Source of the DNA: a virus | IMG/VR virus record: IMGVR_UViG_3300023245_000105 | Span: 1 to 24,817 of that record | DNA length: 24,817 nt | Direction: 5' to 3' (one strand) | Shown: piece by piece, positions 208 through 23,821 of the stretch | Layout of the letters: each line of letters starts with the position of its first letter | Numbering within the stretch: position 1 is the stretch's first letter | The notes under the pieces: generated by a model | Databases searched by the model: none | Told to the model about the DNA's origin: nothing | The model's input: the letters and a program-made list of their open reading frames with translations, nothing else | Program-made: the position numbers and the translations under genes

Positions 208-270
208 CATAAATATACAAATAATTTTCGTTAGTTGTATATTCGTACTGTTAAATTAATATTAACAAAT

Positions 271-310
271 ATAATGGCCTCCTGAATCGTTAAATCCAGG
301 AGGCCATTAT
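271..310. terminator. Strong bidirectional hairpin terminator
   Basis: The perfect 14-bp stem ATAATGGCCTCCTG / CAGGAGGCCATTAT encloses a 12-nt loop. On the minus strand it is followed by ATATTTGTTAATATT, which is T-rich but not a pure T-run. It lies just downstream of the possible small gene at 330-428 and would separate that unit from the tRNA region. Confidence 0.7.
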
Positions 311-329
311 AAAATGTTATAATGTATTG

Positions 330-511: not shown

Positions 512-796
512 TTATTTAGCTTTAATGGCATCTTTAATTGCTGCGTTTGCTAACTGTTTTAAGTGATTCTTATTGATACTACCCTTCTTATCATACAACT
601 TATTGCTAATCTCCTTAGCTGTCTTTGGATCAATGTCAAACTTATCAATTATAGTATCTTCCCATTTCAAGAAGGCCATTAGGGGTTGATATTGTCTCAT
701 CATTGACATTAGCAACTCAGATGCAGCAGAATGAACTGATTCGTCAAGTGGTTGAGAATTTTGTTTAAACTCTTCAAACTCTAAAATATGTTCCAT
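512..796 (-). CDS. Small hypothetical protein, possibly head-packaged
   Basis: This encodes 94 residues, mostly helical and rich in lysine and acidic residues, with no recognised domain. The N-terminus (MEHILEFEEFKQNSQPLDES) loosely resembles the short amphipathic F-x-x-F peptides that open two other proteins in this window and, more distantly, the T4 capsid-targeting sequence MKTYQEFIAE. The gene follows a late-type promoter (TATAAACA, 805-812) by so little that the predicted transcript would have only a few leader bases. There is no Shine-Dalgarno site. Expression late in infection is likely; a role as an internal head protein is speculative. Confidence 0.7.
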   Translation of the reverse strand: MEHILEFEEFKQNSQPLDESVHSAASELLMSMMRQYQPLMAFLKWEDTIIDKFDIDPKTAKEISNKLYDKKGSINKNHLKQLANAAIKDAIKAK

Positions 797-804
797 GCGA
801 TATA

Positions 805-816
805 TGTTTATATATC
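805..816 (-). promoter_or_regulatory. Late-type promoter for the 512-796 gene
   Basis: The minus strand reads GATATATAAACA, one mismatch from the T4 late box TATAAATA. It lies between the tmRNA 3' end and the ATG at 796. By T4 spacing, transcription would start near 799, giving an almost leaderless mRNA. Confidence 0.55.
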
Positions 817-820
817 AATG

Positions 821-1151
821 TGGAGGTGGAGGAAGCGACTCCTCGTCCATACAGATTAGTAAAAAGAATATTTTACAGCTTAGGATAGTCATTTTCTTAT
901 GACTCCAAAAATATGCAGCTTTCGATCAATTCTGCCAAATGATATGTTGTATTAGTTGGGCCAATACTTATGCCGTTCTTACTTCCTTTAATGCCTAACC
1001 TACATACAAGTATACTCTGTAGTATGGCATGCATTAGTACCTAACTATTAGGCGGCAATTGCAAGTTCAGTGTTTCCACTTAGTTTTGATGTAGGTCATC
1101 ACCCATGCTGTACTCTTAGTATTCATCTGCTGTCAAATACTACTCACCCCC
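821..1151 (-). ncRNA. ssrA: Phage-encoded transfer-messenger RNA (tmRNA)
   Basis: tmRNA rescues stalled ribosomes by acting first as an alanine tRNA and then as an mRNA for a degradation tag. The 5' end GGGGGTG (1151-1145) pairs with CACCTCC (828-822) as a 7-bp acceptor stem. Its third pair is G-U, the alanyl-tRNA synthetase identity element. The 5' part continues with the conserved TTTGACAGC motif. The 3' part holds a GGACGAGG...CCTC T-arm-like hairpin. A CAGAT/ATCTG helix can join the two halves. An internal frame ends in the tag GNTELAIAA plus TAA TAG. CCA is not encoded (ACATTG follows), and the T-loop looks one base short of canonical. The 331-nt length is slightly short for the family. 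Confidence 0.9.
1045..1077 (-). other. tmRNA tag-peptide frame
   Basis: From the resume codon GGA at 1077-1075 the frame reads G-N-T-E-L-A-I-A-A, followed by tandem stops TAA and TAG. The A-rich lead-in (CAAAACTAAGT) resembles Bacteroidetes tmRNAs, whose tag (from memory) is GENNYALAA. The L-A-x-A-A ending is the feature recognised by ClpXP-type proteases. The exact resume codon is inferred by analogy. Confidence 0.8.
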
Positions 1152-1160
1152 ATATAATTC

Positions 1161-1172
1161 TATTTATATATC
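1161..1172 (-). promoter_or_regulatory. Late promoter of the tmRNA
   Basis: The minus strand contains TATAAATA at 1168-1161, an exact match to the T4 late-promoter consensus, preceded by GATA. T4 spacing puts the start near 1155, four bases before the mature tmRNA 5' end. The box overlaps the stop codon of the exonuclease gene (TAA, 1166-1164). Confidence 0.75.
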
Positions 1173-11993: not shown

Positions 11994-13871
11994 CTAAACT
12001 AAATCATAAATATCATAATTAAGATTTTCATCTCTTAAGTCCCGCTCTAAGATATTTTCTATTTCTGCCTGGACTGCTTCATCGATAAAGTCATAAAGCT
12101 CTTCGACATACTCTGTGAAATCCACAGTATTTAAGAATTCAGAAGCATTAACTGCAGTCATAACTAAATCATCATTTCCGTTTTGTCCAGAATATCTGCC
12201 ATTTGCCATCTTCCCAAAGGTAGATGATTCTTTTACAGTATCTTTGTCATTAAGTATAATTCTATTTTGTGCTACACCTTTCTTAAAATTTTGACAGAAG
12301 ATTGGCTTATTATCACTTTTAACTTTAAGGCCATAAGATGAGGTCCTAGCATCAATACGATGTTTGAATTTTGTTACAGATTCCTCATCAAAGTCATTAC
12401 GCTGTGGGAAAACCGTTTCAAGTCTTTTCATTAATTCAGATCCAAATACATTCCACTCAATTAAGAGTTTTACATTCTCCTGGTTAAATACATCGCATAT
12501 TAATACATATAAAACCTTTGCAAAGTCGTCTATACTATGTTCATTGCTTCTGAATCTTCCAACTTGATAAAGCCCAAAGAAGTCTACCATACTACCTGGA
12601 GAAATTACTTTCTTCAAGTCCTTTAGTGCCATGCTATTTACTTGGAAGATATTAATGACAGAGTAATCTCCACCATTACCCTCGGCAATATCAATAGAAA
12701 ATAGCCAGTACTTACTATCTTCTCCGGCTTCATCTTCAATACTGAAATTAGGATGCCATTTTAAATCTGAGTATATTAGAGATTCATCATCAAGTTCTGG
12801 GATGTCTCTATGTACATATTCTATTTGGTTCTGTTGTAATCGCTTTAAGCTATCTGGGCTTAATAATAATGATGAGCTTGAGATGAACTGATTTCCATAC
12901 TGTCTGTTGAAAGCTTCTTCACTTCCAAGATTTTGAATTTCAGCCTCCATCCATTCATCATCTCTACCAGGAACATCCCACCAGTCTATTCTAAATGGTT
13001 TATATTCACTTAGGCCTTTCTCGGCTGCGGTGTATATTTCATAAAACTTATTGAACCCCCATGGAGTACTCGTTATAATTACTTTTGAATTCTTGGATGC
13101 TGATACCGTGGGATAAACGTTTTCATAGAAGACGTCAATAAATTGATGTGGAATATGAGCAAACTCATCCATGAATAATAAGTGAATCGTAAATCCAATC
13201 GCTGCCTTTTTAGTGGTTGTCTGACCGATAATTCTGCAGCCATTGTCAAACTTTGAATTAAATACATCGTATTTTAGAACTCCAGGCTTCATAAAGAACG
13301 GTAGATTCTCAAGTATAGTTTTACCCTTATCTAATATTTCTGTGGTAGTTGCACCTTTGTTCGATAAGATTAGTGCATTCTTATCAAAGTTAAATAATAT
13401 GTACCACGCTATAAAGATCGAGGAACAAATCGTGTTCGATGATAATATACCATTAGAATAAAAGCGATGATTATCATGATCAACCGTAACATCAAACATA
13501 CTTACTTTATGCAATGAGGTTTCAATGTTTGATATTCTACTTAATCCGTTGATAGTCTGTATTAAATCTCCAAGTTTTAAATCTTCTACAAAAACAATAT
13601 TGAAATTTATGTCAAAGACCTTATGCTTATCAGCACACTCTAAGGATAAACCATCATCTGTATCTATCTTCCATATTGTATATGGCTGAGTAATATGTAC
13701 ATGTGATAATGGCTCCCATCCAGTATCAGTCCAAACATTAATATTGTTTAATTCAATAGAGTTTAGTATTTTCTTTGAGACGTCATCTTGGTCAAGATCT
13801 ATATTACGATACTCTATAACTTCAATGAAACTTATTAATAGAAGAATGATATGTTTGAGAGTTTTAATCAT
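11994..13871 (-). CDS. Large terminase, C-terminal half with C-intein
   Basis: Of the 625 residues, 1-146 are a C-terminal split intein ending GILSSN, and 147-625 are the rest of the TerL ATPase and nuclease, starting TICSSIFIAWY. The extein shows the Walker B region LLFMDEFAH, the coupling motif TSTP, and the RNase H-like nuclease beginning WLFSIDIAEGNGGD. After trans-splicing with the N-half at GK|T, the 605-residue product nearly equals T4 gp17 (610). TerL pumps DNA into the prohead and cuts concatemers. Residues 1-33 are an unusual hydrophobic extension (LKHIILLLISFIEVIEY) before the intein fold. The start overlaps the N-half stop by 8 nt (ATGATTAA), which should couple their translation. 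Confidence 0.92.
   Translation of the reverse strand: MIKTLKHIILLLISFIEVIEYRNIDLDQDDVSKKILNSIELNNINVWTDTGWEPLSHVHITQPYTIWKIDTDDGLSLECADKHKVFDINFNIVFVEDLKLGDLIQTINGLSRISNIETSLHKVSMFDVTVDHDNHRFYSNGILSSNTICSSIFIAWYILFNFDKNALILSNKGATTTEILDKGKTILENLPFFMKPGVLKYDVFNSKFDNGCRIIGQTTTKKAAIGFTIHLLFMDEFAHIPHQFIDVFYENVYPTVSASKNSKVIITSTPWGFNKFYEIYTAAEKGLSEYKPFRIDWWDVPGRDDEWMEAEIQNLGSEEAFNRQYGNQFISSSSLLLSPDSLKRLQQNQIEYVHRDIPELDDESLIYSDLKWHPNFSIEDEAGEDSKYWLFSIDIAEGNGGDYSVINIFQVNSMALKDLKKVISPGSMVDFFGLYQVGRFRSNEHSIDDFAKVLYVLICDVFNQENVKLLIEWNVFGSELMKRLETVFPQRNDFDEESVTKFKHRIDARTSSYGLKVKSDNKPIFCQNFKKGVAQNRIILNDKDTVKESSTFGKMANGRYSGQNGNDDLVMTAVNASEFLNTVDFTEYVEELYDFIDEAVQAEIENILERDLRDENLNYDIYDLV
13434..13871 (-). other. 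TerL C-intein (146 residues)
   Basis: Recognisable parts are NVWTDTGWEP, YTIWKIDTDDGLSLECADKH (block B, with Ala where TxxH normally has Thr), DLKLGDLI, and DNHRFYSNGILSSN (blocks F and G). The final Asn is followed by Thr as the +1 nucleophile. The residue before the Asn is Ser, where most inteins have His. The break falls between blocks A and B, as in the AceL-TerL class of atypical split inteins. Confidence 0.85.
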
Positions 13872-13932
13872 TTAAAAACTTGATACATTTTTTTAATGTT
13901 TGTTTTGGATCTTTGTTCCAATCTAATTCCCA
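13864..13932 (-). pseudogene. Remnant of a homing endonuclease fused to the N-intein
   Basis: WELDWN and TLKKCIKFLN in the tail align without gaps to WEHEWN and ALEKCMNFLN at the end of the clamp-loader-associated endonuclease, with 11 of 21 positions identical and the stop codon at nearly the same place. The DNA also matches around the stop (AAGTTTTTAAATGATTAA versus AACTTTTTAAACTAA). The upstream boundary of the remnant is uncertain. Confidence 0.65.
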
Positions 13933-14460
13933 TTCATACAGCTTCCACAGAGAATATTTTGTTCTTTCTAAAAATGTAAGCTTTCGGTGAAGTTTTAATG
14001 ACTCAAAATAAAGTCTACCAAGTGTTGTTTTAATGGCGGTGCCATCTCTTAAAATTAGAACTTCAGTTGAATGTAAAAAACATTTCCCAACTTGCCGGCT
14101 GGCTAGGCAAACAGAAAACCGTTCTGCCGCAAACTGCCTCAGCATCTTCTCTTGGTAATCTCGAAGTTCTATCGTCATAAGACCGTTATCGGTCATTACA
14201 GTACAATAGTTATTAGCAAAATAAATTATGTCTTTTGCACATTTTTTAATTTCTGAAATCTCCATCTGGGTATATTCAAAAACAATGTTGCCTTTGCGCA
14301 AGTTTGGATTGCTGTCGTGAAATGGTGTAGACTTACTCTTGTACCCATCATCAATAGCAATCATAAGCTGCTCTACCTTTTTGGAGGTCCAAATATTGGA
14401 TTCTTGTTGCTTACTAACCTTTAGTTCAAATCCTGCCGGTTCTGCTTGTGGTTTAGCCAT
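13864..14460 (-). CDS. Large terminase, N-terminal half with N-intein
   Basis: Residues 1-126 are the N-extein. They contain the TerL lead-in (FANNYCTVMT...IELRDYQEKMLRQF) and the start of Walker A, ASRQVGK, which stops one residue before its Thr. Cys127 begins a class-1 N-intein block A (CFLHSTEVLILRDGTAIKTT). Residues 177-198 do not belong to an intein: WELDWNKDPKQTLKKCIKFL plus ND resembles the C-terminus of the homing endonuclease at 21539-22666. The product must associate with the downstream half and splice to make an active packaging motor. Start is the ATG at 14460; no Shine-Dalgarno site. The GroES-like gene ends 39 nt upstream. Confidence 0.9.
   Translation of the reverse strand: MAKPQAEPAGFELKVSKQQESNIWTSKKVEQLMIAIDDGYKSKSTPFHDSNPNLRKGNIVFEYTQMEISEIKKCAKDIIYFANNYCTVMTDNGLMTIELRDYQEKMLRQFAAERFSVCLASRQVGKCFLHSTEVLILRDGTAIKTTLGRLYFESLKLHRKLTFLERTKYSLWKLYEWELDWNKDPKQTLKKCIKFLND
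13867..14082 (-). other. TerL N-intein plus fused tail (72 residues)
   Basis: The N-intein starts with the catalytic Cys immediately after GK of Walker A. About 25-31 residues (to LGRLYFESL) are enough for block A, judged against the clamp-loader N-intein (30 residues). The remaining 40 or so are a tail with no intein block in it. Confidence 0.8.
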
Positions 14461-20368: not shown

Positions 20369-21532
20369 TCATCCTTCCTTTATTATAGTTTGCAAGGTGT
20401 AAATACACGCCAACATAGATATAACAGGGTCAATGACCTGTAGGCGTTGTGATTGGTATTTAGATACTGTAACAACTATCTGAGGAATTAATGGAATGGA
20501 CGATTGTCTTTCCTTCTTTATGAAGTCAATAAATTCCCCACCTAAAGATGATAGAATGTCATCACATCGGTTGGAATAGTTCGATACCATATACTCATAG
20601 CTTTTTACTGGGTCAGTCCCATCAATGACAAGATCATACACATCAGAGAATAGTGAACTGAACTTCTTAATATCTTCAACTGTTATAAGTTCTTTACCTT
20701 CTGACTTAAAGCCTTGAAGTGTATTTAGCATGTTACGAAGATCTGGGAATTTTCGTTTCACTAATTCTACTGCTGCGTATTTTTCTATTGTTATATCCTC
20801 AGCTTTACAAATTTCAAGTATTCTAACAATATAGCCTTTCATAATCTCAGTCTCCTCATCTTTACCAAAATCGAAGTCGATCATTTCAAATCTTGACTTA
20901 ATTGGATCAGGAACCTTATTGATGTAATTACACGTTGCTACGAATCTTGCATTCTTTGAGAACATATCCATAGTTGCTCGGAGTGCTTTGAAAAATTGGT
21001 CAGATACTCCGTCTATCTCATCTAATATAATTACTTTCATTTTTCCTGGCTTGTCCATAATACTTCGGTTAGCACAAAAGTCAGTAATTCTGTTTCTTAC
21101 TACATCAACACTAGTGTCAGTTGAAGCGTTGATGTACATATATGGATGTTCGAAGTGTTTCACTAGAGCCTTTGCGGCAGAAGTATTATGTGATAATATG
21201 CTGTCTGTATAATACCTATGATTTGTACCAGCAGGTAGCTCTAAATCATACATTTCCTCAGAAGTACCGTCCTTATAGATATCTTTAATGATAGATCTAC
21301 CTTCGCTTACCACTATGCAATCACCAACGTTCAAATTCTTTATGAAAATTTCATTGTAATTTTCATCAAACAAAATGTGATTATCTGCACCGCTTAGTTT
21401 AAGCCCATCTTCAGTAGTAATAGTCCATACTTCGTATGGTATAGTCTTATGCGAAGTTGCTATATCTTCCCAGCCGCTATCTGATAGTACTTGATAATCA
21501 TTAATTTTTTTACTCTCTATAAATTTTTTCAT
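20369..21532 (-). CDS. Clamp-loader large subunit, C-terminal half with C-intein
   Basis: Residues 1-116 are the C-intein and 117-387 the C-extein, beginning TSAAKALVKHFEHPYMYINAS. The extein shows Walker B (KVIILDEIDG), sensor 1 (FVATCNYINKVPDPIKSRFE, which includes the SRF arginine-finger motif) and the lid and collar of the AAA+ clamp loader. Joined to the 49-residue N-extein it gives 320 residues, almost exactly the size of T4 gp44 (319). Four gp44 and one gp62 open the sliding clamp using ATP. The unspliced half lacks the P-loop lysine and cannot bind ATP properly, so splicing is needed for function. It starts 6 nt after the endonuclease stop codon. Confidence 0.92.
   Translation of the reverse strand: MKKFIESKKINDYQVLSDSGWEDIATSHKTIPYEVWTITTEDGLKLSGADNHILFDENYNEIFIKNLNVGDCIVVSEGRSIIKDIYKDGTSEEMYDLELPAGTNHRYYTDSILSHNTSAAKALVKHFEHPYMYINASTDTSVDVVRNRITDFCANRSIMDKPGKMKVIILDEIDGVSDQFFKALRATMDMFSKNARFVATCNYINKVPDPIKSRFEMIDFDFGKDEETEIMKGYIVRILEICKAEDITIEKYAAVELVKRKFPDLRNMLNTLQGFKSEGKELITVEDIKKFSSLFSDVYDLVIDGTDPVKSYEYMVSNYSNRCDDILSSLGGEFIDFIKKERQSSIPLIPQIVVTVSKYQSQRLQVIDPVISMLACIYTLQTIIKEG
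21185..21532 (-). other. Clamp-loader C-intein (116 residues)
   Basis: Visible elements are QVLSDSGWED, YEVWTITTEDGLKLSGADNH (block B, Ala replacing the usual Thr), NLNVGDCIVV, MYDLELPAGTNHRYYTDSIL (block F) and SHN before the +1 Thr (block G). It aligns along its full length with the TerL C-intein, so the two share ancestry. Confidence 0.88.
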
Positions 21533-21538
21533 ATTATT

Positions 21539-22666
21539 TTAGTTTAAAAAGTTCATGCATTTCTCTAATGCTTCTGTTTTTGAGTCATTCCATTCGTGTT
21601 CCCATATTACAAGGACCTCATAACCTTTATCGTTAGCCAATTTAGCTTTTCTTTTGTCGTAATCCCATACTTCAGTTGCAGTTTTACCGCCTCTAATAAT
21701 GTCAGTTTCATTATACATGGTAGGATTACAGTGCCAATAATCTCCATTAAATTCTATGATCTTTCTCTTTTCTTTATGAGTAAAATCATAAGAACATTTA
21801 ATATCTCCTCCATTTATCCACCTTTCTTTTTTAGGAATGTCCATTTGCAATTCATTACAAATAGATTCTATCATGGAAGAAGCAAACTGACTTGACGGTG
21901 AACGTCCATCTCCATAGTTTTCAAAATTCTTTTGTAATGCGATTTTCCATTTTCTTTGCCGTTCTTCAAAAATTTTAGTACCTTCTACTTCACCGTGTTG
22001 TTTGATGCATTTCTCTAAAGTGAAAGTAGCTTGTCTTTCTTTTACTAATGCTTTAGCCTCAGTTTCAGTGTGTCCTAATTTCATCCAGTATTTAAACTGC
22101 GTAGTACTCATGGCATCATATTTTTCTGGATTTGCTTTACGTTTATCTGCAAATGCTTTACCTGCTTTGCTTTGGTGCTTCTTCACAGCAGCTGTGGCTT
22201 CATCTATAGAATGACCTCGCTTCAACCAAAAATCAACATTATTTGGCAGAAGTCGCATATTATAAATCTCCTCCTCTGAGAACCCACGTGCTAGTAGATT
22301 TTCTTTCGTCCCTTTAAAATGGTTTTTGACTTGTTTTGCAATACCAGATTGGACAATGGACATTTGCTTATACCCATCTTCTTCAGAATAACCTCGCTTC
22401 AACCAATAATGAATTGAATTTGGTCTGTTATACTTAAAGTTTAACTTCATAGCTGCGATATAGCTTTCAACTAATGCGGGTGGTAAAAACGCATTAAATC
22501 TATCTATGCGTTTAACTTCAGGTTTATTAGTAACACAATTATCATTAATACAGTCGATAATAGTATTTCTACTATATCCTCTCTTTATCTGGAGTTCGGC
22601 CTTACATAAGTTACACTTGGGTGTAATGTCTGAAGTAAATGTCTTTGCTTTGTAAAAGTATTTCAT
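21539..22666 (-). CDS. Vsr-like (EDxHD-type) homing endonuclease between split-intein halves
   Basis: The 375-residue protein has three parts. Residues 18-44 carry a C-x2-C...C-x4-C putative zinc site. Residues about 87-204 hold four copies of a YWLKRGxSEEEA-type module (87, 124, 146, 193), probably DNA-binding. Residues about 265-375 form a Vsr-like nuclease with SYDF, KIIEFNGDYWHCNP, VWDYDKRKAKLA and VLVIWEHEW. This matches the endonuclease family described with fractured split-intein genes and the phage enzyme I-Bth0305I. It would cut clamp-loader alleles lacking the insertion and so spread itself. A late-type promoter abuts its ATG. The neighbouring halves must splice in trans because of it. 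Confidence 0.85.
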   Translation of the reverse strand: MKYFYKAKTFTSDITPKCNLCKAELQIKRGYSRNTIIDCINDNCVTNKPEVKRIDRFNAFLPPALVESYIAAMKLNFKYNRPNSIHYWLKRGYSEEDGYKQMSIVQSGIAKQVKNHFKGTKENLLARGFSEEEIYNMRLLPNNVDFWLKRGHSIDEATAAVKKHQSKAGKAFADKRKANPEKYDAMSTTQFKYWMKLGHTETEAKALVKERQATFTLEKCIKQHGEVEGTKIFEERQRKWKIALQKNFENYGDGRSPSSQFASSMIESICNELQMDIPKKERWINGGDIKCSYDFTHKEKRKIIEFNGDYWHCNPTMYNETDIIRGGKTATEVWDYDKRKAKLANDKGYEVLVIWEHEWNDSKTEALEKCMNFLN

Positions 22667-22673
22667 ATGTTTT

Positions 22674-22686
22674 GTTTTATATATTC
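22674..22686 (-). promoter_or_regulatory. Late-type promoter of the homing endonuclease
   Basis: The minus strand reads GAATATATAAAAC, two mismatches from the late box. T4 spacing puts the start near 22668, two bases before the ATG, so the message would be nearly leaderless. It lets the endonuclease, and possibly the C-half, be transcribed separately from the N-half. Confidence 0.5.
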
Positions 22687-22724
22687 AAAACTTCTAATGT
22701 TTTATGGGAAGCCGGGATATTGGC

Positions 22725-22964
22725 CTAAAGCATAGTATGAAAATCCCTAATAGACATTGTTTCAATCTTACCTGTGATTTTGTTTTTTACTTCTATTAGA
22801 CTATCGCCAATGACACATTTCCCTGTTCCTGGACTTCCATGGAGCAATAGATGCTGATATACACCCTGCTCAAGTTTAGCTCTTACTCTTTTTGGAGTAA
22901 CGAGATCATTTATATTTTGTGGGCGGTATTTTTCTGTTAGTAATAAGTTTTCTATGTTCTTCAT
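22725..22964 (-). CDS. Clamp-loader large subunit, N-terminal half with N-intein
   Basis: From the ATG at 22964 the 79-residue product has 49 residues of N-extein: the AAA+ lead-in LLLTEKYRPQNINDLVTP (compare T4 gp44 EQKYRPSTIDE) and Walker A HGSPGTGK, cut off before its Thr. Residues 50-79 are the N-intein, starting CVIGDSLIEVKNKITGKIET and ending at a stop. I prefer this ATG to the upstream TTG at 22982 because it begins where the gp44 family begins. The stop is 58 nt before the endonuclease start. Product and C-half must meet and splice in trans. Confidence 0.9.
   Translation of the reverse strand: MKNIENLLLTEKYRPQNINDLVTPKRVRAKLEQGVYQHLLLHGSPGTGKCVIGDSLIEVKNKITGKIETMSIRDFHTML
22728..22817 (-). 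other. Clamp-loader N-intein (30 residues)
   Basis: It begins with the nucleophile Cys directly after GTGK and contains block A only. Block B lies in the other half, 1.2 kb away. Thirty residues is far shorter than usual split N-inteins (about 90-120) but close to AceL-TerL (25). Confidence 0.85.
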
Positions 22965-23035
22965 TATCAAAGTTATATTCAATAGTTATATAGTAAGTTC
23001 TTATAGTAGTTTTATGACCTAGATAAATACTATAC

Positions 23036-23821
23036 ATGATACCTAATAGAAAGCATAATAAGCTCAAGATACTTCCAACGACTTCTGTTAAATCCAGAGT
23101 TGAACGTTCTACGAAAATATTCAGGAGAGTACCCATTACTCAAAATAAGCACGTGCCAACGATAGAACCTAAGAAAGGTTTATCATTTCCTAAACGTAAC
23201 CCACAAATTCCAGTTACTTCAGTGAAACGAATCTGGAACGGTGAAACGGTGTTCGTAATCGGTGGAGGCCCATCACTTAAAACTGCAGAATGGAATAAGT
23301 TAGCTGGGAAAAAGACCATTGCAATAAATAAATCATTCATTACCTATCCTAATGCTGATGTATTATATTGGACGGATAGCAGATTCTATTCTTGGTACAC
23401 AGAGAAAGTGAACGAATTCAAAGGATTGAAGTACACTATAAGACATAGCAATAATTATACTGGAGATATTAATTTACTAACGCGTGGAAGAAGATATGGA
23501 CTAGAAACTAGGACTGATACATTAGCACATGGTAATAATAGTGGGTATGCTGCTATCAATTTAGCATATCATTTAGGTGCCAAGAAAATAGTTTTACTTG
23601 GATATGATATGGGAATAGTAAAGGGTGAAAGTCATTACCATGATGGCTATCCAATTAAGGCTACTTCACATGACATTTATGAAAAGCAATTTATTCCTGG
23701 GTTTCAACAATTAGCTGATGATCTAAAGAAGGAAAAAATTGAAGTTTGGAATGCTTGCCCAACGAGTAACTTATTCGCCTTTCCAAAAATTAGTCTACAG
23801 CGTGGGCTAAGTTTTACTTGA
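23036..23821 (+). CDS. DUF115 / MptE-like Rossmann protein
   Basis: This is the only plus-strand gene in the window. Residues 70-200 carry the family hallmarks: ETVFVIGGGPSLK (70-82), KTIAINKSF, ADVLYWTDSRFYSWY and KKIVLLGYDMG (183-193). Related proteins include archaeal 6-hydroxymethylpterin diphosphokinase MptE and bacterial proteins in cell-surface glycan modification; phage members may alter sugars or nucleotides, but the substrate is unknown. Start choice is open. The ATG at 23036 would be nearly leaderless behind a GATAAATA box at 23022-23029. An ATT at 23135 has AGGAG seven bases upstream and gives a 228-residue protein without the basic N-terminal 33 residues. It ends overlapping the convergent next gene by 15 nt. 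Confidence 0.8.
   Translation: MIPNRKHNKLKILPTTSVKSRVERSTKIFRRVPITQNKHVPTIEPKKGLSFPKRNPQIPVTSVKRIWNGETVFVIGGGPSLKTAEWNKLAGKKTIAINKSFITYPNADVLYWTDSRFYSWYTEKVNEFKGLKYTIRHSNNYTGDINLLTRGRRYGLETRTDTLAHGNNSGYAAINLAYHLGAKKIVLLGYDMGIVKGESHYHDGYPIKATSHDIYEKQFIPGFQQLADDLKKEKIEVWNACPTSNLFAFPKISLQRGLSFT
23123..23137 (+). promoter_or_regulatory. Shine-Dalgarno site placed for an ATT start
   Basis: AGGAG at 23123-23127 stands seven bases before ATT at 23135, in frame with the DUF115-like protein. Strong Shine-Dalgarno sites are rare in this window, so this one may mark the real start. There is no ATG, GTG or TTG at that spacing. Confidence 0.35.

Follow-up and report, generated by a model that had tools for sequence, protein, structure and literature searches.

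The DNA analysed here is a partial phage genome of 24,817 bases (IMG/VR virus record IMGVR_UViG_3300023245_000105; hereafter, the window), in which a putative tmRNA gene follows an exonuclease gene on the minus strand. This locus raises the question of whether the RNA is a working phage tmRNA, given that its D-loop and T-loop depart from the canonical form, and whether it would be made late in infection.

Structure of the tmRNA gene

A regional Rfam scan with permissive filters revealed a match to the model RF00023 at 818–1151 (minus strand, model positions 1–374, E 2e-19), scoring 51.6 bits against a gathering cut-off of 47; a covariance-model search of this kind was one of the checks proposed by the earlier note. 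Neither ARAGORN nor Rfam with fast filters called a tmRNA over the whole window, and the first-pass genome search did not do so either. Together with direct reading of the sequence, the match confirms the earlier description of a complete tmRNA with a G3-U pair, a resume frame and a double stop. The complete 7-bp acceptor stem (GGGGGUG/CACCUCC), starting with G1 at 1151, includes the pair G3-U70, kept in all eight members of the tmRNA family, and is followed by the discriminator A821, so that the elements of alanine identity are present; CCA is absent from the gene (CACCUCC-A-CA). The resume context reads AAAA-CUAAGU-GGA, and the tag frame, GGA AAC ACU GAA CUU GCA AUU GCC GCC UAA UAG, encodes GNTELAIAA followed by two stops.

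The alignment of the eight family members contains compensatory double changes in 18 of the 47 predicted pairs; the pseudoknot upstream of the tag was read by eye only, since its sequence is invariant. The tag frame differs from that of the closest relative, L224, by four nucleotides, all in third codon positions (three synonymous changes and one M to I). As the tag changes relative to L224 are confined to third positions and the helices covary, the tmRNA is under selection. The window RNA is a real phage tmRNA. The tRNA reported beside it does exist, but it is partial (57–1, minus strand) and separated from the tmRNA by about 760 nt that include a 94-aa ORF and a terminator. The coordinates are collected in Table 1.

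Table 1. Features of the tmRNA locus, in window coordinates
Feature	Position	Strand	Evidence
One-piece tmRNA, G1 to discriminator A	821..1151	-	RF00023, 51.6 bits; ends from acceptor pairing
Non-canonical T-arm GAGGA-GUCGCU-UCCUC, 6-nt loop, A53-U61	829..844	-	Sequence; recurs in other phage tmRNAs
D-loop region AGUAGUAUUUGAC without GG dinucleotide	1132..1144	-	Sequence; GG in 90/90 Bacteroidota chromosomal tmRNAs
Tag frame GNTELAIAA (1051-1077) and stops UAA UAG (1045-1050)	1045..1077	-	Sequence; homologous to ARAGORN tags GNTELAMAA/GNTSYAMAA of relatives
Compact pseudoknot GGGU[GAUG]ACCU A[CAUC] just upstream of tag	1088..1104	-	Read from sequence; GGGUGAUGACCUAC invariant in 8 family members
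Late-type promoter GATATATAAATA, predicted start near 1155	1161..1172	-	Contains exact TATAAATA (1168-1161) and exonuclease stop (1166-1164)
Second late-type promoter GATATATAAACA, directly after tmRNA, ahead of 94-aa ORF	805..816	-	Motif
RNase_T/DnaQ-like exonuclease, ExoX-like C-terminus, 263 aa	1164..1955	-	PF00929, 4.8e-22; PF20600; phrog_192, DNA polymerase exonuclease subunit
94-aa ORF downstream of tmRNA	512..796	-	ORF call; no Pfam or PHROG match
Hairpin of 19 bp resembling a terminator, at the end of the unit of tmRNA and 94-aa ORF	270..311	-	Sequence
Partial tRNA (Gln, anticodon UUG by eye), cut at contig end	1..57	-	RF00005, 30.1 bits

Two peculiarities of other phage tmRNAs were observed in passing. 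The tmRNAs of L224 (10082–10487) and L234 (10988–11390), both on the minus strand, contain about 70 extra nucleotides after the tag-side pseudoknot region, resembling part of Vibrio phage sequences. Three huge-phage tmRNAs, also on the minus strand (L290, 1711–2078; L031, 1501–1844; L023, 1501–1857), have unusually long tag frames of about 24–33 residues by reading, e.g., GEAHTHIVTSKSTIAVAGTVVETEVSVA in L290.

The non-canonical elbow and its recurrence

The elbow formed by the D-loop and the T-loop is near-universal in tRNA-like molecules, and its canonical form pairs a D-loop GG with a T-loop UUCRA. In the window tmRNA, AGU replaces the D-loop GG, and the T-loop is a 6-nt GUCGCU closed by an A-U pair rather than a 7-nt UUC loop closed by G53-C61. 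The RNA is classed as a variant member of RF00023 because it lacks the canonical elbow, a feature that is conserved in the hosts and lies outside the model cut-off. In tmRNA, both SmpB binding and function have been reported to depend on contacts between the D- and T-loops (PMC3968760), and the altered elbow could therefore impair function. The T-loop of tmRNA contains the modified nucleotides m5U and pseudouridine (PMC3968760); where the methylated U would lie, the variant loop has a G.

The simplest objection is that the gene is decayed or mis-sequenced, the changes in the T-arm and D-loop reflecting loss of function or an assembly error in a phage that uses the host tmRNA. Every other member of the window tmRNA's own family, including the closest relatives, has a canonical elbow, the RF00023 score of the window tmRNA is the lowest in that family (51.6 versus 71–89 bits), and a search with the exact T-arm found it in one contig only, with no second copy of the window virus. 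This explanation is nevertheless unlikely: the T-stem is retained, G53-C61 having become A53-U61 by changes on both sides, the tag has varied in third codon positions only, and unrelated phage tmRNAs show both the GUCG hexaloop and the lack of a D-loop GG.

The tmRNA of the 636-kb phage LR756504, detected by the covariance model without the use of a T-arm pattern, has the T-arm CUCGAU-GUCGUA-AUCGAG and the D-loop ACGUAUAG. T-arm pattern scans revealed GGGGA-GUCGUA-UCCCC in L288/L290, with the D-loop CAUGUUUUGAC, and GGCGA-GUCG(A/C)A-UCGCC in the L299 group (L296, L299, L301/L303/L304, L306 and L308), with the D-loop AUGUAUCGAUUGG in the members where the 5' end is present. The GUCG shared by the pattern matches arises by construction, but their acceptor pairing, altered D-loop and Rfam scores are independent of the pattern, as is the LR756504 case. 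These tmRNAs score 53.8–82 bits with RF00023, and ARAGORN called a tmRNA in none of their contigs. The paired change of the D-loop and T-loop thus occurs in at least three phage tmRNA groups besides the window, and in none of 90 tmRNAs that the covariance model called in Bacteroidota chromosomes, each of these RNAs having GG, a 7-nt UUC loop and G53-C61. BLASTN searches of INPHARED found only LR756504 itself with its own tmRNA, and no relatives of the L299 tmRNA. A group I intron match (RF00028, 52.6 bits) lies at 512–703 (minus strand) in L299, the same contig as the variant tmRNA.

When the variant label was mapped onto a tree of tmRNA bodies with both gene ends removed (a small sample with some long branches), five changes were counted, at least three of them forced by well-supported branches. 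The D-loop and the T-arm, encoded at opposite ends of the gene, switched together at least three times; such joint change is what a tertiary contact would require and speaks against random decay. The pattern might also have arisen by recombination, through the transfer of a whole tRNA-like domain between phages instead of repeated convergence, which is a real possibility, though short of probable. The bodies of L301 (variant) and L220 (canonical) are near-identical while both their ends differ, and LR756504 shares with the L299 group the flanks GUAU(C/A)GAUUGG and AAGAC. The window and L290, however, keep UUGACA/UGGAC flanks, unlike the L299 type, and transfer needs two linked exchanges because the D-loop and T-arm lie at opposite gene ends. 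Transfer is compatible with a functional elbow, as it concerns origin and not function.

The observations lean, with modest confidence, towards a structural class of phage tmRNAs not recognised before, its members having an alternative pair of D-loop and hexaloop that replaces the elbow as a unit, was acquired or exchanged several times, does not occur in Bacteroidota chromosomes and escapes ARAGORN. Literature searches, which covered open-access papers, returned no description of such an elbow. The window RNA is most likely a working tmRNA with this alternative elbow. A dominant-negative decoy, whose tRNA-like domain would bind host SmpB or AlaRS and inhibit host trans-translation, has a precedent in phage DS6A, whose tag-less RNA with a tRNA-like domain has been suggested to act in this way (PMC4131195, PMC11915505), and the altered elbow might shift the affinity for SmpB; such a role is highly improbable here, since the RNA, unlike that of DS6A, keeps a complete mRNA-like domain, pseudoknot, tag and double stop under selection.

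Relatives, genomic context and the late-type promoter

The closest matches to the tail sheath protein of the window come from huge and jumbo phages, namely LR756500 (462 kb, 46% identity), uncultured phages of 635–735 kb, Tenacibaculum phages and Prevotella Lak phages. Scanning viral contigs with a tag pattern revealed tmRNAs tagged GNTELAMAA, GNTKLAMAA, GNTSYAMAA, GNTQLALAA and GNTEFAMAA. Two of the contigs so found, L224 and L238, are true relatives, with identities of 66% and 63% for the sheath and 60% and 57% for the exonuclease. The tmRNAs of L224, L238, L222 and L003/L229 belong to the same family by alignment and, unlike the window tmRNA, have a canonical elbow and are found by ARAGORN. 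The tmRNA lies downstream of the exonuclease also in L003, L224 and L238, and this shared position indicates that it is an old resident of the locus. The 94-aa ORF yielded no relatives when used as a query. SmpB is encoded by six of the nine large relatives (LR756504, LR756501, LR756502, LR745206 and two Lak phages searched) and was not found in LR756500. Two of these SmpB-encoding phages, LR745206 and LR756502 (W02, W04), contain no tmRNA at the RF00023 cut-off; their tmRNA may be too divergent or absent.

Elsewhere in the window, TerL (gp17-like) is spread over two ORFs (11994–14460, minus strand), the ends of which look like N and C halves of a split intein, with a weak PF14890 match in the second; the clamp loader gp44 (20369–22982, minus strand) is split similarly, with a free-standing 375-aa endonuclease-looking ORF without a Pfam match between the halves. 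The sole sizeable plus-strand ORF with a Pfam match (23036–23821) is MptE-like (PF01973).

The earlier note had linked late expression of the tmRNA to an exact octamer, TATAAATA. The octamer, with three of its 5 copies in the window on the non-coding strand, is not enriched (4.15 expected) and was rejected as evidence for a late promoter; the motif GATATATAA was used instead. The late-type promoter itself stands: GATATATAA occurs at five sites versus 0.88 expected, a number reached in none of 100 shuffles, all on the coding strand and preceding the sheath gene, the tube gene, a 100-aa ORF, the 94-aa ORF and the tmRNA; it is also present in every sheath upstream region examined among the relatives. 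The note's remark that the promoter doubles as the exonuclease stop holds, since TAA (1166–1164) falls inside TATAAATA (1168–1161, minus strand). With a weight matrix trained only on the sheath regions of other phages, the site before the tmRNA scores 15.4 bits, which no Markov sample out of 20,000 attained, and is one of only five sites of at least 15 bits in the window. Weaker similar elements precede the tmRNAs of L224, L234 and L238 (p 0.002–0.02).

In T4, a late promoter is an 8-bp TATA box placed roughly one helical turn ahead of the transcription start (PMC2988020). The sites of the window clade resemble them in having a TATA-type box at this distance and no -35 box, and in the gp55-like sigma of the relatives, but their motif is GATATATAA(A/T), a candidate promoter by sequence. 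The gp55-type late sigma factor (phrog_234) was found in seven of the nine large relatives, the window being a genome fragment. The gp55-like genes of two Lak phages (Lak-A2, 153694–153945; Lak-C1, 193359–193610, minus strand) contain three in-frame TAG codons, consistent with TAG recoding.

These comparisons support a promoter of the clade's late type just upstream of the tmRNA, from which late transcription would follow; the predicted start lies about 4 nt ahead of G1, and the 19-bp hairpin (311–270) is a possible end of the transcript. The tmRNA might instead be constitutive or early, the TATA-like motif being a chance product of the C-terminal codons of the exonuclease. The motif does overlap coding sequence, and the relatives carry, besides their weaker TATA-like elements, a different conserved element, TTCTTTGA, before G1. 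The strength and rarity of the site make this improbable, as does the contig L002, in which an exonuclease 91% identical to that of the window has the stop context GATATGTAA in place of the late motif and no tmRNA was found in the remainder of the contig. Elements similar to TTCTTTGA, possibly of a boxA-type leader or promoter kind, lie a few bases before G1 in L224, L238, L222, LR756500 (L007), L290 and LR756501 (L031), and the window lacks one; of 149 host tmRNA calls, only 8 have a TCTTTGA match in front.

Tag, host and significance

The tag had been described as unlike the usual host type and as possibly directing proteins to a different fate. The contigs matched in a scan with GE(N/T)NYALAA-like tags were nearly all from Bacteroidota, chiefly with GENNYALAA, and the host-tag pattern in a TAANTGG context yielded nothing. 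The GNT pattern was found in 12 of 395 Bacteroidota genomes representing a spread of the phylum, in all 12 as GNTQYAMAA, and the eight such genomes tested group with Flavihumibacter (Chitinophagaceae) in an RpoB tree (support 100/100). A tag foreign to the host was thus rejected, as Chitinophagaceae-like Bacteroidota use GNTQYAMAA. Judged by sequence, GNTELAIAA is a variant of this host-lineage tag, i.e., of host type, and keeps the hydrophobic-Ala-Ala end; a different fate of the tagged proteins is therefore unsupported. The host probably belongs to the Chitinophagales lineage of the Bacteroidota, for which tag similarity is a soft clue only.

The window tmRNA shares with RF00023 and the Bacteroidota chromosomal tmRNAs (tagged GENNYALAA or GNTQYAMAA) the G3-U70 acceptor, a pseudoknot before the tag, a nine-residue tag running from Gly to Ala-Ala and an RF00023 score above the cut-off; apart from the elbow, it differs in its length (about 331 nt versus 350–405 in most hosts) and in the lack of an encoded CCA. 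Phage tmRNAs are known already (PMC4131195, PMC9004378, PMC7162821), and the earlier view that they are uncommon agrees with a count of 402 in 18,146 phage genomes (PMC9004378). Complete genes, often near tRNAs, occur in huge phages, which are known to carry both tmRNA and SmpB (PMC7162821), in mycobacteriophages Bxz1 and Wildcat and phage G (PMC4131195), and, in two-piece form, in marine phages such as Melnitz (PMC9004378). The window tmRNA differs from these in combining a one-piece form, a Bacteroidota-type tag, a late-type promoter and an alternative elbow; the two-piece Melnitz tmRNA, by contrast, was described downstream of an early promoter (PMC9004378).

Taken together, the window probably derives from a T4-like jumbo or huge phage of Bacteroidota with a functional, late-transcribed, one-piece tmRNA bearing a host-type degron tag and an alternative elbow. 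Late transcription from the GATATATAA-type promoter would be followed by host processing, with RNase P acting at G1 and CCA being added, and by alanine charging by way of G3-U70; together with SmpB from the host or the phage, the tmRNA would then free ribosomes stalled on broken mRNAs, the products of which would receive the degron GNTELAIAA. In the tRNA-like domain, an (A/U/C)GU D-loop and a GUCGNN hexaloop with an A-U or U-A closing pair take the place of the D-loop GG and T-loop UUCRA. The purpose of this elbow may be a match to phage SmpB, escape from host modification or nucleases, or another one.

ARAGORN served at least to classify the tmRNAs in the survey that gave the 2.3% figure (PMC9004378), and the tmRNA database relied in its main protocol on ARAGORN and BLASTN hits (PMC11915505); a class with the variant elbow would tend to be missed as a result of this reliance on ARAGORN, which suggests that phage tmRNAs are under-counted. 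Given the reported role of the loop contacts in SmpB binding (PMC3968760), a naturally recurring alternative elbow offers a direct test of elbow requirements. Placement of a tmRNA behind a late promoter suggests that ribosomes are rescued while virions are being made, and, if the proposed class is real, its elbow may free phage tmRNA from host T-loop modification, SmpB preferences or RNA-targeting defences.
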